Assembly (NCBI RefSeq): GCF_017908595.1
Contig: NZ_JAGKTL010000005.1
Coordinates: 186,001-250,000, forward strand
Source: Rhodothermus bifroesti
GTDB taxonomy: Bacteria > Bacteroidota > Rhodothermia > Rhodothermales > Rhodothermaceae
Direction: 5' to 3'
DNA length: 64,000 nucleotides
This document shows, piece after piece, positions 84 through 34,493 of this stretch; within the stretch, counting starts at the first letter, position 1; each line of letters starts with the position of its first letter. The translations under genes and the position numbers were made by a program. The notes below the pieces were generated by a model, which was not told the DNA's origin, ran no database searches, and saw only the letters and a program-made list of their open reading frames with translations.

Positions 84-2321
84 ATGAGGATATCTATGAT
101 TGCAACCCACAAAACGGCAAGTTTAGGGCGTTGCGTGGGAGCCTTGTTGCTCCTGCTGATCTTCAGCGACATCGCGCAAGCCCAGTGGAGCGGTCGCTGG
201 CTTGCCATTGGCCGGCTACAATCCCACTACTTAGGGGGTGGCTCAGAGCCAGAAAGTATGGCTGGTATTGATGGTACCGGCACGTATACCTGGCCAGGCC
301 ACCACATTGGTGCCTACTGGGGCCACTGGCGAGGACTGTGGGTGAGCGCTAAAAATTGGCGTTCGCCTGATGGACAGACGTTCCCCGTGCGCATTGAGCA
401 TATCGGTCCTCGCTTTAACGGGGTAGGAGAGGTGTTTCAAGATGTGATTAAATTGGTCTACAAATTTGAGCAGCCAGAAATTGTGGTTGATGGCCTTCGC
501 ACTTTTGATAAACCTGCTATACCTGACGAAATTGATCCTTCGCTCAAAGCCGATGCCATGGTATACAATAAAACACGTAATGCCATGGGCATCGAGATGG
601 AGCGCAAAGTATATCAATTCAGTAACGAAATCCATCAGGATTATCACATTATCGAATATGTATTTACCAATACCGGCAATGTAGACGAAGACGACGAGAT
701 TGAACTGCCTAACCAAACCCTGCAAGACGTTTACTTCACGTTCTTCTATCGCAACAAAGCCAATGCGCCAGCGGGTGCATGGGATAACAGTGGGGGTGGA
801 GCAGCCTGGGGACAGTTTACGATGAATGATGCGCTGGTGCCGGGCTTTCAAGAATATGGGCAGTCGTTTGCCCAACGCCATGCTGCGCAGTTTTCCTGGT
901 TGGGACATGTGCCGGCGCAGACCGTGTTCAACACCATTGGTAACCCCATGTGGTTTGAACTGCAGCCCTGGATTGCCCATATCGGGGGTGACACTACAGG
1001 GCGCTTAGGCGCAGCTGCCATGTTCGGTACGTTGACTATCCATGCGGATCAGTCGGCAACCAACAAGACCCATGATCCCAGCCAGCCCCGGATGATGACG
1101 CGGCTAGACTCGGACGATGCCGAGCTAACAGCGCGTAATGACCACAACGACCTCAGCGTCATGCAGCTGGAACGCAACTGGCTTGAGGATGGCAATAAGG
1201 TGGCCAGTGATCCAGCCAATGCCCGCTATAACCCCAACAACCCCACGCATGCGTATATCATCCAGCCAGACGGTCGCTTCCATCTGCAAACTTCTGATCC
1301 TTCGCAAGGCCGTCCAGGCGGATGGGGCTATGTCCAAAGCTTTGGCCCGTACACGCTTCAGCCCAACCAGAGCATCCGCATTGTTGTGGCCGAAGGCATC
1401 GCAGGCCTAAGCGACAAGCTTAGCTTTATGCTGGGCAAGTGGTATAAGAACAAAGTTCGGGCAGAAGGGCAGGCTGCTGCTAACGCGGCACGCTTCAGCT
1501 GGAATCCAGTGACGGATAGTCCCTGCCAGGAGGGAAGCCCAGGCTGCGTTAGCCTGACCAAGAATGAGTGGGTGATGACTGCCCGCGACTCACTCTTCCA
1601 GCTCTTCCAGCGGATCCTCAACGTATGGGAGAACAACTTGGACATCCCACAGCCACCTAAACCGCCACGTCGGTTCGTGGTGACCTCAGGCACCGATCGC
1701 ATTACGCTGGAATGGGAGACCTATAGCGGCGAGCCGGATCCACCTGGAGGCTGGGAAATCTGGCGTGCCCAAAGCTTCTACTTTGGTATCCCCCTGCCCG
1801 ATAGCTCTACGGTTTACCAACGGATCGCAACGCTGCCTGGCAATGCGCGCTCGTACGTCGATGAAAACGTGACGCGCGGGGTCAACTACTACTACTACAT
1901 CCAGGCGGTGGGCAATGAAGTCGACGATCCAACCGCAGGTCGCCGCGTGCGCCTCAAGAGCAACCGGTACTGGACGCAAACCTACCAGCCGGCTGTGTTG
2001 CGGCGGCCGCCAGGAAGGTCGTTGGATGAAGTGCGCGTAGTCCCCAACCCCTACAACCTGGAGGCAGACTTGGGCGTCCGCTTCCCTGACCTGCAAGACA
2101 AGATCGCCTTCTACGGCCTACCTGCTCGGGCAACGATCCGGATCTACACAGAGCTAGGCGAGCTGGTCAAGGTGATCGAACACACTGACGGAAGCGGTGA
2201 CGAGTTCTGGGACCTGACTACCTCGTCGCGTCAGGTGGTGGCTAGCGGCATCTACTTTGCCGTCATCACCGACGCAGATACCGGCGCCCAGACCACGCGC
2301 ACCATTGTCATCATCCGTTGA
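84..2321 (+). CDS. Secreted FN3 / T9SS-sorting-domain-like protein, module A
   Basis: The 745-residue product has a signal peptide (hydrophobic core near residues 18-30, likely cleavage after A33 in AQA|Q). A long unrecognised region follows, then a fibronectin type III-like domain at about 523-640, and a C-terminal domain from about 650 beginning VRVVPNPYN. That domain has the FlgD-Ig/T9SS type A pattern: IYTELGELV, a WDL strand, SGIYFAVI and a terminal IVIIR. It is paralogous to the product of 16122-18392, sharing the mature start (WSGRW / WNMRW, then a GGG..PE motif) and the segment KNEWVMTARDSLFQL. It lies between a TonB receptor and a PorV-like gene, so it is probably exported to the cell surface. 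The SD-like AAAAGG lies just before the ATG. The molecular function is unknown. Confidence 0.85.
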   Translation: MRISMIATHKTASLGRCVGALLLLLIFSDIAQAQWSGRWLAIGRLQSHYLGGGSEPESMAGIDGTGTYTWPGHHIGAYWGHWRGLWVSAKNWRSPDGQTFPVRIEHIGPRFNGVGEVFQDVIKLVYKFEQPEIVVDGLRTFDKPAIPDEIDPSLKADAMVYNKTRNAMGIEMERKVYQFSNEIHQDYHIIEYVFTNTGNVDEDDEIELPNQTLQDVYFTFFYRNKANAPAGAWDNSGGGAAWGQFTMNDALVPGFQEYGQSFAQRHAAQFSWLGHVPAQTVFNTIGNPMWFELQPWIAHIGGDTTGRLGAAAMFGTLTIHADQSATNKTHDPSQPRMMTRLDSDDAELTARNDHNDLSVMQLERNWLEDGNKVASDPANARYNPNNPTHAYIIQPDGRFHLQTSDPSQGRPGGWGYVQSFGPYTLQPNQSIRIVVAEGIAGLSDKLSFMLGKWYKNKVRAEGQAAANAARFSWNPVTDSPCQEGSPGCVSLTKNEWVMTARDSLFQLFQRILNVWENNLDIPQPPKPPRRFVVTSGTDRITLEWETYSGEPDPPGGWEIWRAQSFYFGIPLPDSSTVYQRIATLPGNARSYVDENVTRGVNYYYYIQAVGNEVDDPTAGRRVRLKSNRYWTQTYQPAVLRRPPGRSLDEVRVVPNPYNLEADLGVRFPDLQDKIAFYGLPARATIRIYTELGELVKVIEHTDGSGDEFWDLTTSSRQVVASGIYFAVITDADTGAQTTRTIVIIR

Positions 2322-2333
2322 TTTCTTGGGATA

Positions 2334-3392
2334 ATGATCACGCAAACGTTGCCGATGACCATGAAACGCAGCTATATCGGGACCAGCCTCTTGCTATTGG
2401 GCTGGCTGGTTTTCCCGGCCTTACTCTACGCTCAGGGTACAGGAACGGGGACCGAGCTGGAAACCAAAAAGCTGGCCCAAACCGGGTTTAAGTTCCTTAG
2501 CGTATCCGTAGACCCCAGGGCAGCCGCAATGGCCGATGCCCTCACGGCCCGCGATAACGCTTCATCACTGGCCCTTTTCTATAACCCGGCCAGCATGGCT
2601 TACTTCGATCGCACGTTCCACTTTGCAGCTGGACAAACGCGCTGGATTAACAGCACCGACTATAATTTCGCCAGCCTGGCCTATCGCCCCATGGGCGGCC
2701 AGTTTGGCGTGATCGGGCTCAGCGTGGTAGCCGTAAGCTATCCGGAGGTGCTCCGGACTATCTTCGCTAACAACGAACAGGGCTACCTGGACCAGGGCAC
2801 GTATAGCCCCAGCGCATTAGCGATCGGATTGGGCTATGCGCGTGCGATCACCGACCGCTTTGCCGTTGGCGGACATGCAAAGTTTGCCCGCCAAAACCTG
2901 GGTGAGGCCCAAGTTACCCAAGGCGGTCGCATGGAAAGCTACGCGAAGTCGACGATCGCTGTAGACTTTGGCGTGCTCTACCGGACAGCGCTGCAAAGCC
3001 TAACCTTTGCGATGAGCGTGCGAAACTTCTCGCGCGAGCTAACCTATGTGGAGGAAAGCTTTGAGCTGCCACTGGCCTTCCAAATTGGGGCTACCTATAA
3101 CCTCATGGATCTGCTCGCGCCGGCCAACAGCACGCATACGCTTTGGCTTAGCGTCGATGCTGTCCGGCCCCGCGACTACCCTGAGCAAATTAAGGTAGGC
3201 ATGGAATATGGTTTCATGGACCTGCTATTCTTGCGGGCCGGCTACATCACACCTACCGATGAACAAGGGATCAACGTGGGTGCCGGTTTGCGCTTAGGGT
3301 CAGAAAGCTTTCGCATTGGGGTCGATTATGCCTACACCTCGTTTGGCATCTTCGACAACGTCCATCGACTAGGCTTACAGCTGGCCTTCTAA
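2334..3392 (+). CDS. PorV/PorQ-family outer-membrane beta-barrel protein, module A
   Basis: The family (UPF0164-like, FadL-type barrels) includes PorV, the T9SS shuttle protein that carries cargo to the attachment complex. The hallmark N-terminus is present: KKLAQTGFKFLSVSVDPRAA, then a NPASMA motif. The rest is alternating beta-strand sequence ending in LGLQLAF. A signal peptide is read from the internal Met at 2361 (MKRSYIGTSLLLLGWL...YAQ), so 2361 is a better start than 2334; no convincing SD separates the choices. It follows the cargo gene by 12 bases and a paralog occupies the same place in module B. A dedicated cargo-PorV pair is inferred. Barrel family confidence is high; the shuttle role is inferred. 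Confidence 0.88.
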   Translation: MITQTLPMTMKRSYIGTSLLLLGWLVFPALLYAQGTGTGTELETKKLAQTGFKFLSVSVDPRAAAMADALTARDNASSLALFYNPASMAYFDRTFHFAAGQTRWINSTDYNFASLAYRPMGGQFGVIGLSVVAVSYPEVLRTIFANNEQGYLDQGTYSPSALAIGLGYARAITDRFAVGGHAKFARQNLGEAQVTQGGRMESYAKSTIAVDFGVLYRTALQSLTFAMSVRNFSRELTYVEESFELPLAFQIGATYNLMDLLAPANSTHTLWLSVDAVRPRDYPEQIKVGMEYGFMDLLFLRAGYITPTDEQGINVGAGLRLGSESFRIGVDYAYTSFGIFDNVHRLGLQLAF

Positions 3393-3478: not shown

Positions 3479-4762
3479 GTGTTGCGCATACGTCTTTGGA
3501 TTGGCTTAAGTCTACTGATCTTTACCGGCTGCCGGCCAACAGCGCCGGAGGCTTACCGTCCGCCCTCGGAACGCGTGCTGACCGCAGCACAGGCAGCACG
3601 GCTGCATCAGGCCTGGCAAGCTTATGCTCAAGGGGCCTACCAACATGCCATGCAGCTTGCCGATAGCTTGCTGCAAGAAGGTGCTGAAATCGCGGAGGTT
3701 TATTTACTCAAAGGCCGCATTTACCTGGACATCAATGCATTTGAAGAAGCCTTAACCCACCTCGAAAAAGCCCGGGCTTTAGATGCTTACCTGCGGGGAA
3801 TCGATTTCCAAATCGGACACGCGGCGTTTCTTCAAGGGTTCTATCGCCGCGCACTCGCTTACTACTTAAAAGAGCTCGCTTTGATTGAACAGTCCCCTAC
3901 AGAAGTGCAGCGTTACTACGCCGAAACAGACCGCATCGCTAAGGTAGCCATTTATCGACAAGCTGGACGTGCCTGTTTTTTGCTCGATAGCTTGCAGGCA
4001 GCCCGCCAGTTCTATCACCGCGCCTTGGAACTGGATTCCCTAGACAGCGAAAGTTACCGATGGCTGGCTGAACTAGAAGAACAAGAAGGGAACCTTCAAA
4101 CCGCGTTGCAGCTTGCCGAAAAAGCACTCGCCCTGAATCCTAAAGAGCTGGAAAACCTGTATACCTTCGCTCGTTTGCTGCTGCGCACGGGACACACCGA
4201 AGACGCAGTGCATTTTTTGCAGCTGGTTTTGGAACGCCACCCCTTGCACCGGGGCGCAAACTACAACTTGGGCCGCGCCTTGATGTTACGAGGAGAGACG
4301 CGTGCAGGGGAATTCTACCTGGCGCGAGCCCAGCGGATTCAACAGCTCACAGGGAAGATCGATCAAGCCCGATTAGCAGCCTATCAGACCGGAGACGTAC
4401 GCCACTGGAAAGAGCTAGCCACTTTGTTGATTGAAGCTGGAAGATACGTAGAGGCCCGTCGTGCTTTGGATGTTGTGCTGTTTTTGGAGCCGCATAACCT
4501 GGCTCTCGAAAATGACCGTGCAAATTTAGCCCTCCTGCTGGGCGACACGCTAGATGCCCTTGCGCGCTATCAGCAGCTTCTACGTCGCGACCCTACGCTT
4601 GCTGATGTTTGGCTCAATCTAGGCGTTGTCTATGCCCAGCAGAAACAGTACGAAGCAGCCCGCAAGGCCTGGCAACAAGCCTTGCGCTACCGTCCCGATG
4701 ATGATACCTTACGGCAGTATCTGCAGCTGCTGGACCGTCGTATGCACTCGGAAGGGTCTTAA
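3479..4762 (+). CDS. TPR-repeat lipoprotein, module A
   Basis: The 427-residue product begins at a GTG and has a short lipoprotein signal with lipobox IFTGC, so it should be lipid-anchored in the envelope. The rest is tandem tetratricopeptide helices, for example the repeat around GDTLDALARYQQLLRRDPTLADVWLNLGV (shown here only as a landmark near residues 355-380). The C-terminal pattern W.NLG..YA......A..AWQ.AL..P is shared with the TPR lipoproteins at 9261, 21253 and 22548. TPR lipoproteins next to TonB receptors are reminiscent of SusD, which is itself TPR-like, but no SusD signature was recognised. Probable role: a protein-protein scaffold or ligand-binding partner on the outer membrane. 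The start is fixed by the lipobox and lack of an in-frame ATG upstream. Confidence 0.82.
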   Translation: MLRIRLWIGLSLLIFTGCRPTAPEAYRPPSERVLTAAQAARLHQAWQAYAQGAYQHAMQLADSLLQEGAEIAEVYLLKGRIYLDINAFEEALTHLEKARALDAYLRGIDFQIGHAAFLQGFYRRALAYYLKELALIEQSPTEVQRYYAETDRIAKVAIYRQAGRACFLLDSLQAARQFYHRALELDSLDSESYRWLAELEEQEGNLQTALQLAEKALALNPKELENLYTFARLLLRTGHTEDAVHFLQLVLERHPLHRGANYNLGRALMLRGETRAGEFYLARAQRIQQLTGKIDQARLAAYQTGDVRHWKELATLLIEAGRYVEARRALDVVLFLEPHNLALENDRANLALLLGDTLDALARYQQLLRRDPTLADVWLNLGVVYAQQKQYEAARKAWQQALRYRPDDDTLRQYLQLLDRRMHSEGS

Positions 4763-4776: not shown

Positions 4777-7491
4777 ATGTCTCGTCGTAAACGTCTGTTT
4801 TATCTCCCCGATAAGCAGCGCCGTTGGGTGAGCGTTTTGCTTGGCGGCTTTCTGGTGATGCTTCTCAACAGCCTTGTGCTGATTCTTTTCGATCGCTCCA
4901 GCGCGCTGGTTTATATGAGTAACGTGCTCTTGCACGTAGGCCTGGGGCTGTTGCTTAGTGTGCCTTTTGTGATTTTCCTTGCGGCCCACCTGCGTACCAT
5001 GCCGATCCGCTGGAACCTACGGGCTACGGCGGCGGGGGGCTTTACGGCGCTGTCGATAACCTTGCTTTTAGGCAGTGGTATTTTACTCTTTTTTGGGGGC
5101 TCTACCGTGGCCCAGGGCTGGGTGCTGACGCTGCATGTCGTCACCGCAGCCACTTCGGTGTTGGGTTTTGCCCTACATGTTTCCCTCAAACGAGGACAGC
5201 GTTACCGCTTTTTGCTCCTAGAAGGCCTGTCCCAGCGAGCCCAACTTTTGCGGCATCCACTCGCGCTTACTTTAGGCGCCGGTCTGGTGGTTTCGGTGGC
5301 TTTTTTCGCTGTACCCTGGCTTAAGCGTCCGCAACCAGTATATGTACAAACTGGCGAAGACAATCCGCTGCGGTCTTCCCAAGCGCTGCTAGCACACGAA
5401 GGCTTTTTAAAAGAAGCCGCGCTTTCGGGCTCAAAAACCTGCGGTCAAGCAGGTTGCCATCCCGACATTTACGCCCAGTGGGAAGCTTCAGCACATCGTT
5501 TTGCATCGTTCAATAACCCTTACTACCGCCGTTCCATCGAATACATGCTCGAGCGGCGGCCGGTAGAGGCTGCCCGTTGGTGCGCCTCTTGCCACGATCC
5601 GGTAGTACTTTTTTCGGGCCGTTTCGGCCACCGTATGCCCCTGGATACCACGCACTGGACAGCCCATGAGGGCCTTACCTGCCTCGCTTGCCACGCGATC
5701 ACGGGTTTACGCGATTTGCGTGGCAACGGGCGTTATGTGATTGCTGAACCCGATGAATATCCGTTTGCTCGCAGCACTACGGCTCTAGGTCAATGGCTAC
5801 ACCGCCAGCTTATTTTGGCTCGCCCTGAGCCACACCGGCAAGCTATGCTGCGACCGGTACACCGTACGGAGCAGTTCTGCAGCGCCTGCCATAAGGTAGG
5901 CTTGCCGCCCGACGTGAATTACTACCGCTGGATTCGGGGACAAAATGAATACGATGCCTGGCAGATGAGTGGCGTTTCGGGCAATACCGTGCGCTCGTTC
6001 TACCTGCCGTCCCGGCCGCGCACGTGCATCGATTGTCACATGCCACTGGTGCCCTCCAATGACCAAGGCAACGATGGCGGATTTGTCCGCAGCCATCGTT
6101 TCCTTGCGGCCAACACTGCGCTTCCATTTCTTAAAGGGCATGATGAGCAACTGCATGCAACGCAGGCTTTTTTGCAAGACTCGATCGCAACCGTCGACCT
6201 GTTTCTCGTACGCGTCAACGGTCGCACCTATGGCCCCAATCAACCCATGCCTGTGCTGCAGCCCGGCGATCAGGTGGAACTGACGGTGGTCGTGCGCAAC
6301 CGCAAAGTCGGCCATGCCCTCCCTGGAGGGACCAACGATTCCAATGAGCTTTGGCTAGAAGTGGTTGGACGCAATAGCCAGGGACACGTGGTACTGGCCT
6401 CTGGTTTGCTCGATGCTGAAGGCCGTGTTGATTCAACAGCCCACTTTTTCGGTGCTGTTTTTGTCGATCGCGCCGGTCAAGAGGCCAACAAACGCAACCC
6501 ACATGACTTTCGCACGCCCGTTTACGTGAACGTTATCGGTCCTGGCACCGCCCGCACGGTTCACTATCGCTTTACCATACCCCAAGCGCAGCCGGTTACC
6601 GAGTTGGCCGTGGCCTTCAACCACCGCAAATTCAAATGGTACTTCCATAACTGGACGTTTCGGGGACAGGTAGCTCCTGGAGAAGCGGATTCGCTGGCTA
6701 CACCTGAGGTCGACTACCGCCGCTGGATCTTGGCCGAAGATCGGCAAGCGCCGGCACTACCTATTACAACAATCGCTACAGCCCGACGCGTGGCCGGCAA
6801 ACCCCCCGAAAGCAACACCCCGCTCTGGGAGCGCTGGAATGATTATGGCATCGGTCTTTTCCTTGAAGGCAACAACCGTCGTGCCTTGGAAGCCTTTGAG
6901 CAGGTAAGCTTGCTGGCTCCAGAAAGCCCCGAAGGACCGATCAACCTAGCACGCGTCCTGATTGCCGAAGGGCAATTGGACCGTGCAGCAGAAGCTTTGG
7001 CTGAAGCAGAGCGCCGACGTCCAGGATACCTTAAAACAGCCTACTTCCGCGGGCAAATCCATCAGCGCCGTGGTGAATACGACCAGGCCCTGGCCGAATG
7101 GATGAAGGTCCAAGAACACTATCCTTTGGACCGTATCCTTTTGCAAGAAATTGGACGTGTGCATTACCTCTCGGGGCGCTATGAGGAAGCGTTGCGCTGG
7201 TTCGACCGTATTTTAGCTATCGATCCCGAAGACTTAGGTGGCCTCTATAACCGCATGTTGGCTCTAGGTGCGCTGGGTCGCACCGAAGAATTCCTTGCGG
7301 CCAAGGCGCGTTATGAGTATCATAAGGTGGACGAGGAGGCCTCAGCCTGGAGTACCCCCTACAAACACCGTCATCCCATGGTCAACCGTGAGGCTCAGGC
7401 CATCCATGAGCATGAGCTGCACCCCGTGCTGCCTCAGCCGCAACTAACCCGACAACCTGCTGTAGCTTGGCAATCTCCTGCTTCAAAATAA
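4777..7491 (+). CDS. Fused membrane / pentaheme cytochrome c / TPR protein
   Basis: The 904-residue product has three parts. Residues 1-190 hold about five membrane helices, two of which carry paired histidines (HVGLG...AAH and HVVTAATSVLGFALH), as in bis-His heme b proteins. The periplasmic middle part carries c-type heme motifs at about residues 222 (CGQAGCH, a CX4CH spacing), 269 (CASCH), 302 (CLACH), 368 (CSACH) and 417 (CIDCH), resembling the cytochrome c554/c' family, followed by a beta-rich region with GHALPGG near 510. The C-terminal part, from about 685, is TPR repeats. It is unique to module A. Likely function: passing electrons from the quinone pool or periplasmic donors through hemes to a partner or substrate. 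The heme motifs are seen directly; heme b binding and direction of electron flow are inference. Confidence 0.85.
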   Translation: MSRRKRLFYLPDKQRRWVSVLLGGFLVMLLNSLVLILFDRSSALVYMSNVLLHVGLGLLLSVPFVIFLAAHLRTMPIRWNLRATAAGGFTALSITLLLGSGILLFFGGSTVAQGWVLTLHVVTAATSVLGFALHVSLKRGQRYRFLLLEGLSQRAQLLRHPLALTLGAGLVVSVAFFAVPWLKRPQPVYVQTGEDNPLRSSQALLAHEGFLKEAALSGSKTCGQAGCHPDIYAQWEASAHRFASFNNPYYRRSIEYMLERRPVEAARWCASCHDPVVLFSGRFGHRMPLDTTHWTAHEGLTCLACHAITGLRDLRGNGRYVIAEPDEYPFARSTTALGQWLHRQLILARPEPHRQAMLRPVHRTEQFCSACHKVGLPPDVNYYRWIRGQNEYDAWQMSGVSGNTVRSFYLPSRPRTCIDCHMPLVPSNDQGNDGGFVRSHRFLAANTALPFLKGHDEQLHATQAFLQDSIATVDLFLVRVNGRTYGPNQPMPVLQPGDQVELTVVVRNRKVGHALPGGTNDSNELWLEVVGRNSQGHVVLASGLLDAEGRVDSTAHFFGAVFVDRAGQEANKRNPHDFRTPVYVNVIGPGTARTVHYRFTIPQAQPVTELAVAFNHRKFKWYFHNWTFRGQVAPGEADSLATPEVDYRRWILAEDRQAPALPITTIATARRVAGKPPESNTPLWERWNDYGIGLFLEGNNRRALEAFEQVSLLAPESPEGPINLARVLIAEGQLDRAAEALAEAERRRPGYLKTAYFRGQIHQRRGEYDQALAEWMKVQEHYPLDRILLQEIGRVHYLSGRYEEALRWFDRILAIDPEDLGGLYNRMLALGALGRTEEFLAAKARYEYHKVDEEASAWSTPYKHRHPMVNREAQAIHEHELHPVLPQPQLTRQPAVAWQSPASK

Positions 7492-7494
7492 GCT

Positions 7495-9240
7495 ATGCGT
7501 ATAGACAACATGTGGAAAGCCTCCTTTTTAGGCATCCTGTTGCTTTTGACCAGTGCGTGTGAACGCGCCGAGCAGGTGCAGCGGCCACTCGATGCAGCGC
7601 CCACCTCAACCGTGCAGATTGCCTTTACCGATGTGACCGAAACAGCTGGCTTGGGGGCTTTCCGGCATGAAACAGGCGCTTTTGGACAAAAGTGGTTCCC
7701 TGAGTCGATGGGCTCGGGATGCGGCTTTATCGATTATAACAACGACGGGTGGCTCGACATCGTCCTGGTTGGAGGTGGGGTGTGGCCCGGTCGCAGTGCA
7801 AAAGATTGGGTACGACCCCTCTGGCTCTACCGCAACAACGGTGACGGCACCTTTACCGACGTTACCGACGAAGCCGGTCTAGGAAACCTTACGGCTTATG
7901 CCCTGGGCATCACCGCAGCCGACTACGATAACGACGGCTATGAAGACCTCTACGTAACCACCCTTTGGAAAAACATTCTTCTCCGCAACAACGGCAATGG
8001 GACGTTTACCGACGTAACCCAAAAAGCAGGCGTGGCAGGCGACTCGGTGTGGAGTAGCTCAGCGATTTTCTTTGATGCCGACGGCGACGGCGACCTGGAC
8101 CTGTTTGTCGGCAATTATGTCTACTGGACGCCTGAAACCGACCTCTGGTGCTCGCTTGATGAAAAAACCAAAGGGTACTGCACCCCTGAGGCCTACACCG
8201 GAATTCCACCGTATTTCTTCCGTAACAACGGCAACGGCACCTTTACCGACGAAAGCCAAAAGGCAGGCTTTGCACCCGCACCGGGGAAAACGCTAGGCGT
8301 GGCCGAAACAGATTATAACCACGACGGCTGCCCTGACCTCTATGTGGCCAACGACACGCAACCAGACCAGCTCTACCGCAACAACTGCGATGGGACGTTT
8401 ACCGACATTGGCCTCATTAGTGGGGTAGCTTACGATGAAAACGGCAAAGCCCGCGCCGGCATGGGTAACGATGCGGGCGTGGTCGATACCACCGGACAGG
8501 TCACGTTCTTTGTAGGTAATTTCTCCAAAGAGATGATCGGTGTCTACCGCTACATCGGCAACGACTTATTTATCGACCGGGCAGCTGTCTCAAAAATCGG
8601 CCGTGCGAGCCTGCAGACGTTGACGTTTGGGTTGTTCTTGTTTGACGTAGAACGGGACGGTGATCTGGATTTGTTTGCGGCTAATGGACACGTGCAAGAT
8701 GAAATCGAGCGCGTTCAGGATGGCATTACCTATGCCCAACCACCTCACCTGTTTCTGAACGACGGCTACGGCTTTTTTGAAGACGTGGCCCCTAAGGCTG
8801 GGGGCGTGTTGGCACAACCTATCGTGGCCCGAGGCGCCTGCTATGGTGACTTTAACCGGGATGGTTTGGTTGATATTTTGGTCACCGAAAACAGTGGTCG
8901 GGCGCACCTGTGGCGCAACGAAACCAAAGGTGCTGGCCATTACCTGCGCGTGCAGCTGGTCGGGACCAAGAGCCATCCCCAGGGAATCAGTAGCCAAGTG
9001 GTGGTGCGCCTAGGCCAGCGTCGCTTAGAGCAGCGGGTGCGAACAGGGGGAAGCTATTTGTCCGTTTCTGAAAAAACCCTCACCTTTGGCCTTGGCACTG
9101 CGCGACGCGTCGATGCCGTTGAAGTCCGCTGGGCTTCAGGACTTCAGGAGACCTTTGGGCCGTTTGACGCCGACCAGGAAGTGCGTCTGGTCGAAGGTAC
9201 CGGACGTCCTGCAACAACGTTGGCACAGGCAGGACAGTGA
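7495..9240 (+). CDS. FG-GAP/VCBS-repeat, ASPIC/UnbV (CRTAC1-like) lipoprotein, module A
   Basis: The lipoprotein signal ends in lipobox LTSAC near residue 22. The body is a beta-propeller of FG-GAP/VCBS blades with repeated DxDxDG calcium loops (DYNNDGWLD, DYDNDGYED, DADGDGDLD) and the recurrent RNNGNGTFTD motif. The C-terminus matches the ASPIC/UnbV domain (GGSYLSVSEKTLTFGLG). It starts three bases after the cytochrome stop, so the genes are co-transcribed. Its paralog is 19625-21340. CRTAC1-like proteins are extracellular calcium-binding propellers of poorly known function; surface display as a lipoprotein is inferred. A second ATG at 7510 would also give a workable signal. Confidence 0.87.
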   Translation: MRIDNMWKASFLGILLLLTSACERAEQVQRPLDAAPTSTVQIAFTDVTETAGLGAFRHETGAFGQKWFPESMGSGCGFIDYNNDGWLDIVLVGGGVWPGRSAKDWVRPLWLYRNNGDGTFTDVTDEAGLGNLTAYALGITAADYDNDGYEDLYVTTLWKNILLRNNGNGTFTDVTQKAGVAGDSVWSSSAIFFDADGDGDLDLFVGNYVYWTPETDLWCSLDEKTKGYCTPEAYTGIPPYFFRNNGNGTFTDESQKAGFAPAPGKTLGVAETDYNHDGCPDLYVANDTQPDQLYRNNCDGTFTDIGLISGVAYDENGKARAGMGNDAGVVDTTGQVTFFVGNFSKEMIGVYRYIGNDLFIDRAAVSKIGRASLQTLTFGLFLFDVERDGDLDLFAANGHVQDEIERVQDGITYAQPPHLFLNDGYGFFEDVAPKAGGVLAQPIVARGACYGDFNRDGLVDILVTENSGRAHLWRNETKGAGHYLRVQLVGTKSHPQGISSQVVVRLGQRRLEQRVRTGGSYLSVSEKTLTFGLGTARRVDAVEVRWASGLQETFGPFDADQEVRLVEGTGRPATTLAQAGQ

Positions 9241-9260
9241 ACCCTAATCTAGCATAGAGG

Positions 9261-10475
9261 ATGGGCCGTGCGTGGAGTGTTTTGCTGCTGAGTGCTGGAC
9301 TGGTTGCTTGTCGCGCCAATCCGTCAAGCTATGCACCACTGCCTCCTGAAGCTGAGGCGCTCCTAGTGCAGGCAGAAGCCGCCTTGCAACAGCAGGCTTT
9401 TATCGAAGCCCTTCAGCTAGCCAATCGGGCAGAAAGCCAGGCGCCAGCGCACCCCGATGTACTGTTTTTTAAAGGACGCCTCTACACGCGCATGATGCTG
9501 CTCGACGCGGCCGACAGCCTGTATCATCTGGTGGCACAACGCGTGCCCGACTATCCCGGTCTGTGGCATAACCTAGCGAACAATGCCGCCCGAAGAGGAC
9601 AGTTCGGGCAAGCTGTGGCTTACTATCGCAAAGAATTGAAACAAAAACCAACGCCCTTGGCATGGCGAGGGCTTGCCCGAGCTTATCAGGAACTGGGACG
9701 CGTCGATAGTGCCCATGTCGCTTATGAGATGGCACTGCGTTTAGACAGTACCTATGCCGAGGCTTGGTTGGACCTGGCAGAACTGTACGAAAAAGAAGGA
9801 CGCCTCCAAGAGGCGCTCCTGGCCGCGCGGCGCGCTTGGGAGCAGGTGCCGCACAGCTTGATTGCCCGCTACCGACTAGGGAATCTGCTTCGGCAAACCG
9901 GCCAGCTGGAGGCCGCTCGGGTCTTGTTAGCGTCGGTCGTACAGGAAGCCCCATGGCATCATGCTGCTCACTACAGCTTAGGCCTGCTGCTGCAGCAGCA
10001 AGGAGCACGGGAGGCAGCCCAACACCTCATTAAAAAAGCCGAAACGCTGCGCGCCTTGCAGGCCAAGGTAGAACAAGCCGAACTCATGATTTCTAACACG
10101 CCGCGCGATCCCTATGCTTACGCTACGCTAGGTTCACTCCTGCGCCGCTTGGGCCAGTATGCTGAAGCGCTCTATGCCTACCAGGTAGCCCGCTATCTGG
10201 ACCCGAAAAATCTGGAATTTCAAAACAACATCGCCATCTTATACTTGCTCCTGGGTCAGGCAGACCAAGCCCTTGCCTGGCTAGAGCAAGCCGTACAACA
10301 AGACTCGACGTTTGTCGATGGCTGGATCAACTTAGGTATCCTCTATGCGCGGCGTGGCAACGTTGCTGCTGCACGTGAGGCCTGGGAGCGGGCACGCCGT
10401 TTGGCCCCCAACCGTCCAGAGCCTCAACGCTACTTGACCCAACTTGCAGCAGGGACAGCGCCCAATGGGCCATGA
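9261..10475 (+). CDS. TPR-repeat lipoprotein, module A (second)
   Basis: The 404-residue product has a signal with lipobox GLVAC and about nine or ten TPR units. It is closely similar to the product of 22548-23747: both contain WHNLAN, a KELK or NELK segment and the motif GR.YRELG.VDSA..AY. Gene order (FG-GAP gene then this TPR gene) is the same as in module B. Its stop overlaps the next start by four bases (ATGA), indicating translational coupling with the downstream FG-GAP protein. Likely an envelope scaffold or adaptor of the module; substrate unknown. Confidence 0.83.
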   Translation: MGRAWSVLLLSAGLVACRANPSSYAPLPPEAEALLVQAEAALQQQAFIEALQLANRAESQAPAHPDVLFFKGRLYTRMMLLDAADSLYHLVAQRVPDYPGLWHNLANNAARRGQFGQAVAYYRKELKQKPTPLAWRGLARAYQELGRVDSAHVAYEMALRLDSTYAEAWLDLAELYEKEGRLQEALLAARRAWEQVPHSLIARYRLGNLLRQTGQLEAARVLLASVVQEAPWHHAAHYSLGLLLQQQGAREAAQHLIKKAETLRALQAKVEQAELMISNTPRDPYAYATLGSLLRRLGQYAEALYAYQVARYLDPKNLEFQNNIAILYLLLGQADQALAWLEQAVQQDSTFVDGWINLGILYARRGNVAAAREAWERARRLAPNRPEPQRYLTQLAAGTAPNGP

Positions 10476-12703
10476 AGCTGTGCCAAAGCATGGTGATAGC
10501 CCTCTGCGTGGGGGCGATCTGGGGATGCCGAGCTACTGACCAAGAGCTTGCAGTTCCCCAAAACGGCACTGCGCGTATGGTTGATACTTTGGCGGCGATC
10601 TATCGCCGGGCGCAGCAGCAACCGATGGACTATTACCTGCTCAATACACTTCGGGCAGCATGGTGGCAAAAGCAACTGGCATCGGCTGGCGACAAAGCTA
10701 GCACCCTCCACCGGATTAGCTACGCCCAAGAGCTTTTAGCTGCTGGCCAAACCGAAGAGGCTATTCGAGAAATTAAGGCCCTTCTGGCACGCTACCAGCG
10801 CTCGGCCTATTGGCAGGCACCAGAAACGCGCGGCCTGCTTGAGATGCTAGCTACGGCCTACTTTCGGCTTGGAGAACAGCAAAACTGCCTAGCCGGTCAT
10901 GCCGACGAAGCCTGCATCCTGCCCTTGCGCGGCCGCGCCATCCACCGCCATCCTGAAGGCGCACAACAGGCCATAACGCTCCTCACACGTCTTGTAGAAA
11001 GCAGCCCGTTTGATTTCCAATCACGCTGGCTTTTAAACTTAGCCTACATGGCGTTGGGTCGCTATCCTCAAGAAGTACCCCAGCGCTGGCGCATCGAGGG
11101 CCTATCTATCCCCGAAGCGACAACGCCGCTTTTTCGCAACGTAGCCCTGAGTCGCAACGCAGCAGTCGTTGGGCTTGCCGGCGGTGTGGCCGCTGAGGAT
11201 TTCAACAAAGATGGTTTTGTCGATCTCTTGGTCACTTCCTATGGACTCAACGACCAGGTTCGACTTTTGCTCAACAACGGCAAGGGCGGCTTTATAGACC
11301 ATACAGCGCAAGCCGGCCTAATCGGCATTGTGGGCGGACTCAACGTGGTGCAGGCCGACTATAACAACGATGGTTACGTCGATGTCCTGATCCTGCGCGG
11401 TGCCTGGCTTGGACCCGCGGGGGCCATCCCTATGTCGCTCTTGCGCAACAACGGCAATGGCACGTTTACTGACGTTACGTATGCAGCCGGCTTAGGCACA
11501 CCTTGCCCCACCCAAACTGCTGCCTTCGGTGACTTTAACCTGGACGGATGGATCGATCTCTTTGTAGGATGCGAGTCGCAAGGAGGATCGGTCATGGGCT
11601 TGGGCGCGGCTGCTGCGACAGCTCCCCTGGACTTCCCCTGTAAGCTCTACGTAAATAACCGCGATGGCACGTTTACCGATATTGCATCCGAAGTAGGACT
11701 GGACGTGCGCGCTTGGGTAAAAGGGGTGGTATGGGCAGACGTGAACAACGATGGGCTTCCAGATGTGTATCTGTCGATCCTAGGCGCCCCAAATCGGCTT
11801 TTTTTGAATCGGGGAAGTAGCGATGGACGCCTGTGGCGCTTTGAAGACGCAACCGAGCAAGCCGGCGTTGGACAGCCACTTTTTAGTTTTCCCGTCTGGG
11901 CTTTCGATTACAACCAAGATGGGTGGGAAGATTTGCTGGCCGCCAGCTTCGACCTGCGCTATTTAGGGGAAGCCCCCGCAGAGTTTGCGCTAGATTGGCT
12001 GGGGCATCCTATTCGCTCTGAAAAACCTGTGCTCTACCGCAACAACGGCGACGGTACGTTTACCGACGTAACAAAAGCTGCAGGCCTTGACCGCGCTTGC
12101 TTTACCATGAGTGGAAACTATGGCGACCTAAACAACGACGGCTGGCCCGATGTGTACTGGGGAACCGGAACCCCTGATTTTCGAGCACTGGTCCCTAATC
12201 GCCTCTTTTTTGGACAAGGAGAGCATTTCGTGGAGCAAACGCTCCTATCTGGAACCGGTCACCTCCAAAAAGGCCATGGGGTTGCTATGGCCGACTTCGA
12301 TCAGGATGGGGATCTGGACCTGTACGTTGTGCTGGGAGGTGCCTATGAAAGCGACGTTTTCCCCAATGCACTTTTCGACAACGAAAAAGCAGCCTCAGGA
12401 AACTGGGTGCAGCTCCGGCTTGAAGGCCAACGTGCCAATCGGGCAGCTATCGGGGCACGTGTACGCTTGGTTGTACGGCAACCCTCTGGCTCGCATCGCG
12501 TTTTGCACGCCACCGTTTCTTCTGGGGGAAGTTTTGGCGCTTCGCCCTTGATGCCCTGGATAGGCCTAGGCGATGCCGTGCAAATCGATACACTCGTTGT
12601 TGTTTGGCCTACACCTGATCGCCGCCAAGACGTTTGGACGCATCTGGCCGTAAATCAAACCTATCACCTGCAGGAAGGCGCAAGCTTAAAGCCGCTCAAG
12701 TAA
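10472..12703 (+). CDS. Helical (TPR-like) + FG-GAP + ASPIC/UnbV lipoprotein
   Basis: The 743-residue lipoprotein has a signal with IWGC near residue 19. A helical N-domain (about 20-205) carries a repeat-like segment (AQELLAAGQTEEAIREI) and a conserved cysteine-containing stretch (NCLAGHADEACILPLRG). Seven or so calcium-type DxDxDG propeller loops follow (DFNKDGFVD, DYNNDGYVD, DVNNDGLPD, DFDQDGDLD) and a C-terminal ASPIC/UnbV domain (SSGGSFGASPL). It combines in one chain the two element types that module genes otherwise encode separately. The ATG overlaps the previous stop. It has no counterpart in module B. Function unknown; surface location inferred. Confidence 0.83.
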   Translation: MKLCQSMVIALCVGAIWGCRATDQELAVPQNGTARMVDTLAAIYRRAQQQPMDYYLLNTLRAAWWQKQLASAGDKASTLHRISYAQELLAAGQTEEAIREIKALLARYQRSAYWQAPETRGLLEMLATAYFRLGEQQNCLAGHADEACILPLRGRAIHRHPEGAQQAITLLTRLVESSPFDFQSRWLLNLAYMALGRYPQEVPQRWRIEGLSIPEATTPLFRNVALSRNAAVVGLAGGVAAEDFNKDGFVDLLVTSYGLNDQVRLLLNNGKGGFIDHTAQAGLIGIVGGLNVVQADYNNDGYVDVLILRGAWLGPAGAIPMSLLRNNGNGTFTDVTYAAGLGTPCPTQTAAFGDFNLDGWIDLFVGCESQGGSVMGLGAAAATAPLDFPCKLYVNNRDGTFTDIASEVGLDVRAWVKGVVWADVNNDGLPDVYLSILGAPNRLFLNRGSSDGRLWRFEDATEQAGVGQPLFSFPVWAFDYNQDGWEDLLAASFDLRYLGEAPAEFALDWLGHPIRSEKPVLYRNNGDGTFTDVTKAAGLDRACFTMSGNYGDLNNDGWPDVYWGTGTPDFRALVPNRLFFGQGEHFVEQTLLSGTGHLQKGHGVAMADFDQDGDLDLYVVLGGAYESDVFPNALFDNEKAASGNWVQLRLEGQRANRAAIGARVRLVVRQPSGSHRVLHATVSSGGSFGASPLMPWIGLGDAVQIDTLVVVWPTPDRRQDVWTHLAVNQTYHLQEGASLKPLK

Positions 12704-12813
12704 AAATTGCCCTTTTGTGAATAAAGCGTGAAGTAATTGAGGGGAATAGGAAGCGGTTTGGGTGCTCTTGTCTCTTCATTAAGAACGCACAAAAAGTGCC
12801 TTTCAACCCAGCC

Positions 12814-12819
12814 GGAGGT
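12814..12819 (+). promoter_or_regulatory. Shine-Dalgarno GGAGGT deciding the TonB receptor start
   Basis: GGAGGT lies nine bases before the ATG at 12829 and abuts the ATG at 12820. It favours 12829 over the upstream GTG at 12796 as the start. Strong SD sites are uncommon among the neighbouring genes. Confidence 0.6.
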
Positions 12820-12828
12820 ATGTTTGCA

Positions 12829-15800
12829 ATGGGACAGTTACGGCAGCTAATGTTCATTGGATTGGTATGGATAGGCGTAGGGATTCCAGGAGCATGGGCG
12901 CAGACAGGGAAGATTGCCGGTGTGGTAACAGACGCCGAAACAGGCGAGCCGCTCCCAGGCGTGAACGTCGTGATTGAAGGCACGACGATGGGGGCCACCA
13001 CAGATATTGAAGGATACTACGTTATCCTGAATGTGCGTCCGGGTACCTATCGCGTGCGGGCTTCGTTTGTGGGTTATGCGCCCGTTGTGGCAGAAAACGT
13101 GGATGTAAGCATTGGGCTGACGACCGAGCTCAATTTCCGCTTGCAGCCGCAGGCAATCGGGTTAGAGGAAGTGGTGGTTACGGTGCAGCGTCCGGTCGTG
13201 CAGCCCGACGTTTCAGCCTCACTGGCTAATATTCGGGCTGAACAGGTCGAAAACCTTCCAGTGGTCAGCATCGCAGATGTGATTGGCCTGCAGGCAGGCT
13301 TTGAGCCAGGGCTGACCATTCGCGGTGCCGGAGGGGATCAGGTGGCTTTTGCGATTGATGGAATGTCGCTTGCCGACCCCCGTGGCAACACGCCGATTCT
13401 GGGTGTAAGCTTTACCGCCATTGAAGAGGTGCAAGTGCAAACCGGGGGCTTTAATGCAGAATATGGGAACGTGCGCAGCGGCCTAATCAATGTGGTTACG
13501 AAAGAGCCCACGACCAATCGGTATTTTGCTGATGTCTTAGCGCGCTACTCTCCACCATCCCGTCCGTATTTTGGGGCTACACCTGGTGATTTAGAATCCT
13601 ATTTTGTTAAACCATTCTTAGATACGACGCCACTTGAAGGATGCCCGCGGGGTGTAGCCTACTGCGGCACCAGTGTATGGCCTCGATGGCTCCAGGAAGA
13701 GTATCCAAGCCATCAGGGATGGGATGCCTTAGCGGGGGGAACGCCTTGGACGCCAGAGCAACTCTATTCAGCCTATCAGTGGCTGGTGCGTAAAGATTTT
13801 ACCATTCGCGAGCCAAACTATGAGTTTGATGGCACCATTGGAGGTCCTGTTCCGCTGGTGAGCCGGTACTTAGGCAATTTGCGTTTTACCGCTTCCTACC
13901 GCCAGGTGCAAACGGCACTTATGTTTCCCGAGCAGCGTCCTGCCTATCGGGATCGCCTCTTTCAGGGGAAGCTGATCTCAGATATCGCCACGGGCATGAA
14001 GCTGAGCATCGATGGGCTGTACCGAAAACAGCTTGGGCATGCGGCCCATCGGGATGGTAGAGGGACGATTCTCACCGGGGAGATGCCCCGCTATCCTTGG
14101 GATAGCCGAGAGGATCTCATGCCGGTACAAATGAACATCGGCTTTAACATCAACATGGCCCTGTTTGGTGACTGGGGCTTTAGCCCAACCAACATTACCC
14201 AGTCGATGATTGGGGCAAAGTTTACCCATGCCCTGAGTCCGGCTACATTCTACGAGGTGCAGCTGCAGCGCATTGAGTCGGATTATTTCACGTTCATGCC
14301 TCGCCCGCGTAAGGGTGGCATTACCGGTCCGAGCGCGATTGTGAAGTGCATTCGTCGAGATGGTTCGTTTGCCGATCCACAGAATGGCCAGTGCGCGGCA
14401 GGTGAACTGGGCGTGACCGAAGCGCCGTTTGGGTTTAAAGAGTCCTATGAGAATGCGGCTACGCCCACGCCGTTTGGGCTTTTAGGTTCACAGGCAGGTT
14501 CGGCACGGGACACTTCCAACATTGTGCGCTATGCTGGCCGCGTGGATTTGACCAGCCAGGTAAACCGCGTTCTTCAGATCAAGACAGGGCTGGAGTACAT
14601 TTTCAGTGACTACCACATCCGGCATGGCGTCTATGACCCAGCCAACCCGCATCATGAAAACGAAAAATTCCGCTGGGATCGTACCCCTGTGCAGGCTGCT
14701 TACTACGCTCAGGCTAAGCTGGAATTCAAGGGCATGATTGCCAACCTGGGGTTACGCTTCGACTATTTCAATCCCAGCGGTAGGTGGTACGACTATACAG
14801 CCTTTGACCGGGCGCTTTCGGCCAGTATCGGCATTCGACGGCTCGATCAGGTGCTGCCGCGTAAGCCGGTAGAAAAGCAACTTACCGTTAGCCCGCGTTT
14901 AGGTGTGTCGTTCCCCATTACGGAGAACAGCAAGCTTTATTTCAACTACGGCCATTTTCGTCAAATGCTCACCCCACAAGACCTCTTCCGGGTTGAGTAT
15001 ATCTCAAATGGTGCCATTTTTAGCATTGGCAATCCCAACCAGCCGCTGCCTCGGACAATCGCCTACGAGCTGGGGTTTGAGCAGAATATCGCAGACCAGT
15101 TTCTGCTGCGCCTAGCAGGTTTTTATCGCGACCTGCACTATCAACCGCGCGAAGTGGAATATATCAGCGTAGATGATGCTGTGGATTACTTCCGGGTTGA
15201 ACCACTGAACTATGGCGATGTGCGCGGCTTTGAACTCACCGTGGAAAAGAACCGTGGGCGGTGGATCCGTGGGTTTGTGAACTATACGTATCTGGCACGC
15301 AAGTTTGGCAATTTTGGCTACGGGCAGATCAACGAAAACCGGGCAGAATTTCGCCAATACCTAACAACCACTACAGATCACTACCCATGGGCACCAGTGC
15401 CTGAGCCGTTTGCACGGGTCAACCTGGAACTGATCGTTCCCGAGGACTATGGTTTGTTGCTGGGCGACTGGCGCCTGAACCTGCTAGGCGAGTGGCGGGC
15501 AGGTGCTAAGGGCACCTGGAATGGCCAAAACTTTGAATTTGGCCCAGGCAACGATCCTGAAATCGCCTTTAACACGGGCTGGAAGGATTACTACAACCTA
15601 GACCTTCGCCTCAGTAAAAACTTGCAAACGTCCGTTGGGCGCGTCCAGTTCTTTGTCGACGTGACCAATGTGCTAAACCTGCGGCGGATGTATTGGAGCA
15701 ATGGCTCCATCTTTGAAGGACCCAATGACCTGACCAACTACTTCCGCTCGCTTCACCTGCCAGGTGATATCTTTGGTGAAAAAGATCCAGGCTATGTGTG

Positions 15801-16092
15801 GGTGCCAGGCAAGGATAAACCAGGAGACTACCGTAAACCCGGTGTCGCCTATGATCCCATCTTTGCCGTTTTGGACGTCACCCAGGTTACTGATCCTATA
15901 CCGAATGTGCTCTACTGGGACAAGAAAACAGGCCAGTACATGACGTATGCCAACGGGAGTTGGGGACCAGCAGATAAACGGCGGGTGGATTATGTGCTGA
16001 AAAATAAAGCCTATATCAGCATGCCCAGTGAGTCGTACCTGGCCTTCCTGAATCCACGTGACGTCTACTTTGGCGTGCGCATCACCTTCTAA
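12829..16092 (+). CDS. TonB-dependent receptor with carboxypeptidase-regulatory N-domain, module B
   Basis: The 1087-residue product starts MGQLRQLMF with a signal ending in GAWAQ. A CarboxypepD_reg-like domain follows (GKIAGVVTDAETGEPLPGV, about 24-105), then the plug (SIADVIGLQAG, IRGAGGDQVAFAIDGM, FNAEYGNVRSGLINVVTKE) and the 22-strand-type barrel ending in YFGVRITF. This is an energy-dependent outer-membrane transporter. The substrate is not evident; no SusD gene follows. Instead a cargo protein and a PorV-like gene do, as at the window's left edge. The 12829 start is chosen over the in-frame GTG at 12796 because of the SD and a clean signal peptide. Confidence 0.92.
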   Translation: MGQLRQLMFIGLVWIGVGIPGAWAQTGKIAGVVTDAETGEPLPGVNVVIEGTTMGATTDIEGYYVILNVRPGTYRVRASFVGYAPVVAENVDVSIGLTTELNFRLQPQAIGLEEVVVTVQRPVVQPDVSASLANIRAEQVENLPVVSIADVIGLQAGFEPGLTIRGAGGDQVAFAIDGMSLADPRGNTPILGVSFTAIEEVQVQTGGFNAEYGNVRSGLINVVTKEPTTNRYFADVLARYSPPSRPYFGATPGDLESYFVKPFLDTTPLEGCPRGVAYCGTSVWPRWLQEEYPSHQGWDALAGGTPWTPEQLYSAYQWLVRKDFTIREPNYEFDGTIGGPVPLVSRYLGNLRFTASYRQVQTALMFPEQRPAYRDRLFQGKLISDIATGMKLSIDGLYRKQLGHAAHRDGRGTILTGEMPRYPWDSREDLMPVQMNIGFNINMALFGDWGFSPTNITQSMIGAKFTHALSPATFYEVQLQRIESDYFTFMPRPRKGGITGPSAIVKCIRRDGSFADPQNGQCAAGELGVTEAPFGFKESYENAATPTPFGLLGSQAGSARDTSNIVRYAGRVDLTSQVNRVLQIKTGLEYIFSDYHIRHGVYDPANPHHENEKFRWDRTPVQAAYYAQAKLEFKGMIANLGLRFDYFNPSGRWYDYTAFDRALSASIGIRRLDQVLPRKPVEKQLTVSPRLGVSFPITENSKLYFNYGHFRQMLTPQDLFRVEYISNGAIFSIGNPNQPLPRTIAYELGFEQNIADQFLLRLAGFYRDLHYQPREVEYISVDDAVDYFRVEPLNYGDVRGFELTVEKNRGRWIRGFVNYTYLARKFGNFGYGQINENRAEFRQYLTTTTDHYPWAPVPEPFARVNLELIVPEDYGLLLGDWRLNLLGEWRAGAKGTWNGQNFEFGPGNDPEIAFNTGWKDYYNLDLRLSKNLQTSVGRVQFFVDVTNVLNLRRMYWSNGSIFEGPNDLTNYFRSLHLPGDIFGEKDPGYVWVPGKDKPGDYRKPGVAYDPIFAVLDVTQVTDPIPNVLYWDKKTGQYMTYANGSWGPADKRRVDYVLKNKAYISMPSESYLAFLNPRDVYFGVRITF

Positions 16093-25142: not shown

Positions 25143-25158
25143 TCCAAAAATCCATGCC

Positions 25159-26073: not shown

Positions 26074-26085
26074 ACCAAACCTCCA

Positions 26086-26796: not shown

Positions 26797-26799
26797 GCC

Positions 26800-28197: not shown

Positions 28198-28210
28198 ACG
28201 GACGTAAGCC

Positions 28211-29545: not shown

Positions 29546-29598
29546 AGTGTCTACGATGCGCTAGGGAGCAGTTGATTTGGACCTCAAGCCTAGAGCGC

Positions 29599-30843: not shown

Positions 30844-30926
30844 AAGCGGCCCAAATTGATTCCTCTTCCCAAGTAACCTGTAAAATAGATCCACAACATA
30901 CAAAAAAGAAGCCCCTCTTTCTGCAT

Positions 30927-30940: not shown

Positions 30941-31020
30941 AGGTTTGCGTAAAGAGTCTTTAAAATCCTATCTTCTATCCGTTCTTTTGATGAAAGGGCT
31001 TTCGTTTTGGTGGATGACCT

Positions 31021-32739: not shown

Positions 32740-32753
32740 AACCGGCAAGGCCT

Positions 32754-34475: not shown

Positions 34476-34493
34476 CAGCGATTCGATAGCCGT

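Follow-up and report, generated by a model that had tools for sequence, protein, structure and literature searches.

A stretch of 64,000 nucleotides from the genome of Rhodothermus bifroesti (contig NZ_JAGKTL010000005.1, positions 186,001 to 250,000; this whole stretch is called the window hereafter, and coordinates count from its first letter) encodes a membrane cytochrome of 904 residues, here named CYT, which is followed on the same strand by a lipoprotein of the CRTAC1 type, made up of an FG-GAP propeller and an ASPIC domain. This cytochrome-CRTAC1 pair is the firmest and most interesting result of the analysis, and the two proteins very probably form a functional unit. What the sequences themselves show is the architecture of CYT and its conservation, the adjacency and co-occurrence of the two genes, the existence of a clade of CRTAC1 partners, and the operon synteny within the genus; the occupancy of the heme sites, the topology, the direction and substrate of the electron flow and a contact between CYT and CRTAC1 are inferred from these. 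The explanation favoured here, to which a probability of roughly 0.45 is assigned as a whole, is that CYT would be an inner-membrane electron-transfer protein which, together with CRTAC1, carries electrons from the periplasm to the quinone pool.

Architecture of the cytochrome

The arrangement of CYT, in which transmembrane (TM) helices with histidines precede five c hemes, an immunoglobulin-like (Ig-like) domain and TPR repeats, is assigned with high confidence from the following features:

4777..7491, forward strand: CYT, a membrane / pentaheme c / Ig-like / TPR cytochrome of 904 residues (open reading frame, ORF, with ATG start; motifs, Pfam, model)
4804..5331, forward strand: residues 10-185, five TM helices, with H53/H120 and H71/H134 as predicted b-heme ligands (model, alignments)
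5440..6039, forward strand: residues 222-421, five covalent c-heme motifs, one CX4CH and four CX2CH (motif scan, alignments, shuffles)
6178..6636, forward strand: residues 468-620, Ig-like beta domain with the invariant H513 (GHxxPxG) (alignment, AlphaFold, profile, VIA-align)
6829..7317, forward strand: residues 685-847, TPR repeats (Pfam, structure search)

A first-pass annotation of this DNA had described a 904-residue protein with His-paired helices, five c-heme motifs and TPRs, and its coordinates and length were exact; the motifs are confirmed, and the list of helices, hemes and TPRs stands, the Ig-like domain having been overlooked.

The CX4CH motif lies at residue 222 and the CX2CH motifs at 269, 302, 368 and 417, and together they hold all ten cysteines of the protein. 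In 20,000 shuffles of the protein there was never more than one CX2CH, CYT is the sole ORF of at least 80 residues in the window with any C(X2-4)CH, and the motifs are retained in relatives from five phyla, a conservation that is partly there by construction, as the rows of the A1-type and 73-row alignments were chosen for at least four CX2CH and a length above 600 residues (a choice that leaves the conservation of the TM histidines unbiased). At L047, L051, L052 and other Acidobacteria loci the first motif is CX2CH instead of CX4CH. The genome also carries two matches to Cytochrom_C_asm. Given these observations, the idea that CYT is a TPR membrane protein with chance motifs, which finds its sole argument in the poor model of the heme core, is hardly credible.

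Pfam places Cytochrome_C554 at residues 226-306 (26.3 bits against a cut-off of 20.8) and TPR_2/16/19 at about 694-819. The pentaheme cytochrome c552 of Thermochromatium tepidum (5ze8) is retrieved by a profile search with residues 205-640 (E 3.5e-8); the main segment of the alignment covers positions 14-126, and in a weak third segment the surroundings of H513 are aligned with HAMPTG in 5ze8. The heme/beta part also matches 5ze8 in Foldseek (E 8.8e-8) and in VIA-align (model 398-626, Z 9.6, root-mean-square deviation (rmsd) 3.9, 145 aligned residues), where beta-domain matches occupy the results from the sixth onward, so that the absence of other cytochrome folds there is uninformative. The strands of the Ig-like domain are at about 471-618 in both AlphaFold models, and the domain stands between hemes and TPRs. 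The heme part is nearest to the pentaheme c552 family, and the c552 protein has been grouped with ExtKL and with pentaheme cytochromes of cable bacteria bearing an Ig-like domain (PMC11976967). With this pentaheme cytochrome (PHC) family (5ze8, ExtKL, Gsu2801 and the sPHC of cable bacteria), CYT has in common the five c hemes followed by the Ig-like domain, and it differs in its His-bearing TM anchor, its TPR fusion and its pairing with CRTAC1; its match to the ExtKL model (NF040886) reaches 16.5 bits, below the curated cut-off of 250.

The AlphaFold2 model of the full protein has a mean predicted local distance difference test (pLDDT) of 69.2; it starts with five helices and resolves the TPR arm well but the heme region poorly. 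A first structure search with CYT was filled by TPR matches and gave no other lead. Outside the heme motifs, four histidines (240, 353, 440 and 513) are invariant in 73/73 rows, and at four other positions (H342, H362, H556 and H596) His is kept in 46 to 59 rows. The C-terminal tail, EAQPIHEH, is conserved as well; its H877 and H879 (residues 877-879 being window 7405-7413), each His in 55/73 rows, are a possible ligand or docking site.

The predicted helices span residues 12-37, 43-74, 81-111, 113-137 and 161-182, with H53 and H71 in helix 2, spaced by 18, and H120 and H134 in helix 4, spaced by 14. In alignment A1, which has 25 rows and took 24 of 27 loci (L052, with a split ORF, L053, cut by the contig end, and the distant L054 were omitted), H53, G57, G87 and H120 are nearly invariant, and these are the only invariant positions of a 20-row TM alignment. 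In the 73-row alignment, H53 and H120 are each His in 66 rows, the remainder being gaps, bar one Asn at position 53; the column of the second TM helix is filled in 67 rows, of which 66 have His at 53. For H71 and H134, both histidines are present in 43 of these 67 rows, neither in 17, and seven are discordant, so that their retention is linked (Fisher 1.6e-9, uncorrected for kinship). If the positive N-terminus is taken as inside, H53/H120 would face the periplasm and H71/H134 the cytoplasm, and the pairs would therefore be H53-H120 and H71-H134. Conservation gave no sign of unpaired helix histidines, which the first-pass annotation had named as a refutation of an electron-conduit role.

In VIA-align, the best match of the TM part is STEAP2 (Z 11.4, rmsd 4.0, 169 aligned), followed by FdnI (Z 10.2, rmsd 4.4, 143 aligned), NOX5 (Z 9.8, rmsd 4.4, 154 aligned) and SpNOX (Z 9.7, rmsd 3.7, 150 aligned). 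These are b-heme membrane proteins, with one heme in STEAP2 and two in the others. On the models, the TM part most resembles such proteins, although scores in this range can also come from a common arrangement of helices; like them, it has a helix bundle bearing paired histidines on two helices; the conserved pairs of b-heme domains are present in CYT, the second being absent in 17/67 rows and half absent in seven. The TM part has no family match above the curated cut-offs of Pfam or NCBIfam, and a sequence-profile search of the PDB gave no convincing relative. The inner-membrane b/c cytochromes of the CbcL type, found in metal-reducing bacteria, likewise join a b-type membrane part to many c hemes, and they probably differ from CYT in fold family and partners.

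The CRTAC1 partner and the spread of the pair

The gene that follows CYT is:

7495..9240, forward strand: ASPIC1, a CRTAC1-type lipoprotein with FG-GAP propeller and ASPIC domain, partner of CYT after a gap of 3 bp (Pfam, tree, co-occurrence)

The window holds two similar gene sets, module A, to which CYT belongs, and module B. The cytochrome had been thought to be carried by module A alone, which is correct inside the window; elsewhere in the genome, on another contig (C2:493336-495207), there is a second pentaheme gene, CYT2, which encodes 664 residues with five motifs and no TPR, 32% identical over residues 22-629. After it come a 591-residue CRTAC1 and a separate TPR protein of 287 residues. 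This trio of CYT2, CRTAC1 and TPR protein recurs in L143, L144 and L146-L149, and it is a split form of the fusion seen in the window. With a paralogue in the genome and relatives in other phyla, the notion of CYT as unique to module A was rejected.

The search for the same domain fusion elsewhere, which the first-pass annotation had proposed, found it in Rhodothermota, Bacteroidota, Marinimicrobia, Acidobacteriota and Armatimonadota, with full relatives in records named Rhodothermus, Roseithermus, Snuella, Marinimicrobia, Acidobacteria and Armatimonadetes/Chthonomonas. CYT was detected in 26/394 genomes of the window's phylum (E 1e-30), in 11/149 of the Marinimicrobia set (E 1e-60) and in 32/149 of the Acidobacteria set (E 1e-150); a scan of viral contigs gave no relatives. 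One locus drawn from the Marinimicrobia set (L137, G550:C88) has both the CYT and the CYT2 modules in a highly Rhodothermus-like form, with 53-62% identity to Rhodothermus for PorV, CYT, the CRTAC1s and CYT2, which may represent a transfer or a binning error.

One set of neighbourhoods covered 49 regions picked among the hits (20/32 Acidobacteriota genomes, 9/11 genomes of the Marinimicrobia set, and the remainder from Rhodothermota/Bacteroidota); in this set and in the wider count below, neighbours were labelled by BLAST to proteins of the window or of its own genome, a procedure by which divergent CRTAC1s can be missed. The next gene on the same strand encodes an ASPIC protein for 46 of 77 CYT or CYT2 genes (37/68 CYT and 9/9 CYT2), and such a protein lies at most two genes away for 52/77. 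After dereplication by hand, which dropped 22 near-duplicate loci, CRTAC1 is the next gene in 34/55 cases and within two genes in 40/55; contig edges cut short six of these loci. With nine ASPIC matches across the 2.9 Mb of the own genome, adjacency by chance would be expected in well under 1% of cases.

Co-occurrence was assessed in 40 related genomes, among which a close CRTAC1 (ASPIC1-like, E 1e-60) is found in 22/22 with CYT and in 2/18 without it (Fisher 2.4e-9, kinship ignored), and both of the latter (G007 and G010) are split assemblies, with about 490 and 780 contigs. In three families some genomes have CYT and others lack it; in f4 and f6 CYT and CRTAC1 appear together, and f2 has one genome with CRTAC1 and no CYT. 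ASPIC matches number 5-29 per genome (mean 11) where CYT is present and 0-9 (mean 2.6) where it is absent.

A tree of 71 CRTAC1 proteins (FastTree; 43 CYT-bearing or own-genome loci sampled, plus three window proteins) places 26/27 direct partners of CYT in one clade (34 rows, Shimodaira-Hasegawa (SH) support 100) and 9/9 partners of CYT2 in a separate one (SH 96). The five rows of the CYT-partner clade classed as 'other' all come from CYT-bearing loci or from the window, and they include ASPIC3, the CRTAC1 of module B. Four Marinimicrobia CRTAC1s located two genes from CYT fall in another clade, and five further CRTAC1s of the own genome, which are large or TPR-bearing ones plus one beside an RnfD-like gene, are outside both clades. 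Full-type CYT is present once per genome in most cases, and close CRTAC1s number from one to eight, which suggests a hub with several client modules. Given the place of ASPIC3 in the partner clade, module B may share the CYT of module A, so that the two modules, of which A had been proposed as a redox version of B, are better read as served by one cytochrome.

The conserved residues of the CRTAC1 partner are mostly Asp of the calcium-site type, and no heme motif is found in it. A literature search of titles and abstract openings, with most subscription papers beyond its reach, returned no description of CYT with CRTAC1, no function for bacterial CRTAC1/ASPIC proteins and no 3-keto-glycoside locus with a CYT/CRTAC1 module. 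CRTAC1 genes have also been described in hydrazine-synthase-like clusters (PMC12758564); the arrangement of CRTAC1 beside heme-enzyme genes is common to both, and the heme protein family differs. Another CRTAC1 adjoining a membrane protein of an electron-transfer family is found at L065 (G000:C2, 12478-15185, reverse strand), where a 621-residue CRTAC1 overlaps by one base the gene of a 280-residue NQR2/RnfD-like protein, in which the (S/T)GAT motif of the flavin mononucleotide type is absent.

Surrounding modules and the 3-keto-glycoside operon

The remaining genes of the two modules, among which are proteins related to the type IX secretion system (T9SS), are the following:

84..2321, forward strand: T9SS-cargo-like surface protein, with C-terminal matches below cut-offs
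2334..3392, forward strand: PorV/PorQ family protein (NF033709)
3479..4762, forward strand: TPR protein 1, with a lipoprotein-like start, 14 bp upstream of CYT (ORF, Pfam)
9261..10475, forward strand: TPR protein 2, a lipoprotein (ORF, Pfam)
10472..12703, forward strand: ASPIC2, a TPR-FG-GAP-ASPIC protein outside the CYT-partner clade (Pfam, tree)
12796..16092, forward strand: TonB-dependent receptor, heading module B (Pfam, NCBIfam)
16122..18392, forward strand: T9SS-cargo-like protein of module B, 51% identical to the module A copy
18483..19535, forward strand: PorV family protein of module B, 50% identical to the module A copy
19625..21340, forward strand: ASPIC3, CRTAC1 of module B, in the CYT-partner clade (tree, co-occurrence)
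21253..22542, forward strand: TPR protein 3 of module B (ORF)
22548..23747, forward strand: TPR protein 4 of module B, a lipoprotein (ORF)

The position of CYT between the PorV-cargo set and two FG-GAP/ASPIC proteins is as first described (Pfam, NCBIfam). Module A is headed by a TonB receptor just before the window (C5, about 182793-186000), 53% identical to the one in the window. Just upstream of this module (L067, G000:C5:168678-180166) there is a SusC-SusD pair with, after it, two very large CRTAC1s of 1198 and 1118 residues and an inositol monophosphatase, and a locus of Snuella sedimenti (L041) has the order SusC-SusD-CRTAC1-CYT-GH97-GH101, of the polysaccharide type.

Downstream, module B runs into a catabolic gene set:

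23880..29545, forward strand: Nuc_H_symport transporter, TIM barrel, 3-keto-disaccharide hydrolase and two GFO/IDH/MocA proteins, several with twin-arginine starts
31021..35159, forward strand: two GMC oxidoreductases and a Gluconate_2-dh3 small subunit

In Pfam, the whole region of 23880-38279 holds the transporter, TIM barrels, 3-keto-disaccharide hydrolase, GFO/IDH/MocA (two with twin-arginine starts), two GMC and Gluconate_2-dh3, followed by ThuA. GMC with Gluconate_2-dh3, 3keto-disac_hyd, GFO/IDH, TIM barrel and transporter are also the components that it has in common with 3-keto-glycoside utilisation loci, and the region can be classed as an operon of this kind, presumably serving a periplasmic 3-keto-glycoside route. 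The tandem GMC genes (31021-34475) are 86% identical over 574 residues, and both are upstream of the single Gluconate_2-dh3.

In four loci (L028, L029, L161 and L162) the transporter, TIM barrel, keto-hydrolase and GFO genes come directly after the CYT-CRTAC1(-TPR) block; in two further Rhodothermus loci examined (L159 and L160) the block runs into a TonB receptor, as in the window. In 6/7 genomes of the genus, Gluconate_2-dh3 and CYT share a contig, at a distance of 11-30 kb. In one Rhodothermales family (L031-L040 and L042, with CYT split in L038), a gene of the FAD_oxidored type is found directly upstream of CYT; two of these genes were put to Pfam, and those inspected have a twin-arginine start. 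In L137, a pyrroloquinoline quinone (PQQ) dehydrogenase lies inside the CYT cluster. Pfam applied to operon neighbours gave mixed families, and a fixed substrate gene beside CYT across phyla was rejected.

Direction of electron flow and its meaning

In the favoured explanation, the five helices would carry one b-heme site that nearly all members share (H53-H120), toward the periplasm, and another that most of them have (H71-H134), toward the cytoplasm. The five c hemes with the Ig-like domain, of the PHC type (pentaheme c552/ExtKL-like), would stand in the periplasm and be followed by the TPR arm, and CYT would pair with its dedicated clade of CRTAC1 envelope lipoproteins, a single cytochrome serving several CRTAC1 modules, module B among them. 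In Rhodothermus, electrons from the oxidation of glycosides by GMC/Gluconate_2-dh3 dehydrogenases would enter CYT and reach the quinone pool by way of first the c and then the b hemes, and TPR and CRTAC1 proteins would keep the substrate or the enzyme complex in place.

The GMC, Gluconate_2-dh3, 3-keto-disaccharide hydrolase and twin-arginine GFO/IDH neighbours point to periplasmic oxidation. Inward flow to quinone is preferred because the flavin adenine dinucleotide (FAD) dehydrogenases must hand their electrons to an acceptor, and the window encodes no c-type cytochrome other than CYT. As the module runs into the 3-keto-glycoside operon with its FAD dehydrogenases, electron flow from periplasmic sugar oxidation is favoured over metal export. 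A direction from periplasm to quinone is given somewhat less than an even chance, and glycosides as the electron source are a more tentative proposal; for the 3-keto-glycoside operon, CYT is a candidate acceptor on the basis of a synteny seen in this genus only.

Several observations weigh against this explanation. The heme core of the AlphaFold models is poor, with mean pLDDT of 69.2 (full) and 58.2 (TPR-less construct) and values mostly below 50 in the core, where hemes are absent from the models, and VIA-align Z scores below ~13 for helical bundles, as obtained for the TM part, may reflect merely a common helix arrangement. For its five hemes CYT has only four distal histidines that all 73 rows share, a redox motif is not evident in CRTAC1, and L031-L040 and L042 have no CRTAC1 match in the examined flanks of CYT. 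For these last loci, sampled genomes that are probably of the same family hold several close CRTAC1s elsewhere (G020, G030 and G039), the family f15 including such loci by place (G030 is L031 and G039 is L033). Gluconate_2-dh3 is present in 22/22 genomes with CYT and also in 13/18 without it; it therefore does not need CYT, and its candidacy as an obligate partner is weakened. Outside the genus, homologues of the 3-keto genes near CYT are merely scattered, and other neighbours vary (amidases, transporters, a kinase and regulators).

An outward conduit had been proposed instead, in which CYT oxidises quinol and electrons pass through the c hemes to CRTAC1/TPR surface proteins and then to metals or oxidised organics. 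The topology and hemes of CYT permit either direction, the nearest heme family includes ExtKL, and is linked to extracellular cytochrome nanowires (PMC11976967), and the TonB receptor, T9SS cargo and PorV place surface proteins in the same cluster. However, CYT is the window's only ORF with a heme motif, CRTAC1 has neither heme nor redox motif, the ExtKL model is matched far below its cut-off, and the ORFs of the window that were run against Pfam include no porin-cytochrome gene, a genome-wide scan not having been made. The conduit claim holds in its general form, as paired histidines and five hemes fit electron transfer and the link to CRTAC1 is conserved across phyla, but flow to surface partners is not borne out, the neighbouring catabolic genes suggesting periplasmic oxidation instead, and export is considered unlikely.

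On the other hand, with only four invariant distal histidines for five hemes, one of the hemes may be bound by a different residue or be open, and an open heme could be catalytic instead of serving pure electron transfer. CYT would then reduce a small periplasmic substrate with electrons from quinol, CRTAC1 bringing or shaping the substrate, a role with which the presence of CRTAC1 genes in the hydrazine-synthase-like clusters (PMC12758564) is consistent. However, a position that is conserved to a lesser degree (H342, H362, H556 or H596) may provide the fifth ligand, and no known reductase family is matched above the curated cut-offs of Pfam and NCBIfam; a catalytic reductase is, likewise, improbable.

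Finally, CYT might reduce a metal or a disulfide on behalf of the TonB/CRTAC1 import modules, as a means of envelope redox upkeep or metal uptake, its membrane part working as a metalloreductase of the STEAP/FRE type. The match of the TM fold to STEAP2/NOX, the TonB receptors of the module and the calcium-type Asp sites of CRTAC1 are in line with this, but CYT lacks an NAD(P)H domain in the cytoplasm, the resemblance in fold is a generic one and the nearby genes are for sugar catabolism, which leaves it very unlikely.

To return to the favoured explanation, a wider reading, offered with considerable doubt, is that CYT together with the CRTAC1 clade makes up a redox system of the envelope, undescribed so far and present in at least five phyla, in which a quinone-linked hub of b and pentaheme c type serves several interchangeable CRTAC1 propeller modules, each of which would bring a TonB receptor of its own and surface parts of the T9SS/PorV or SusCD kind. 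If so, the CRTAC1/ASPIC proteins would be the subunits that face the substrate in a periplasmic oxidoreductase built of modules, which would be a first function for bacterial CRTAC1, and their fixed partnership with a membrane cytochrome makes this role testable. If the glycoside dehydrogenases of the periplasm pass their electrons to CYT, the 3-keto-glycoside route of these bacteria would have its acceptor, and the company of a cytochrome with TonB/T9SS uptake modules would be accounted for as well.

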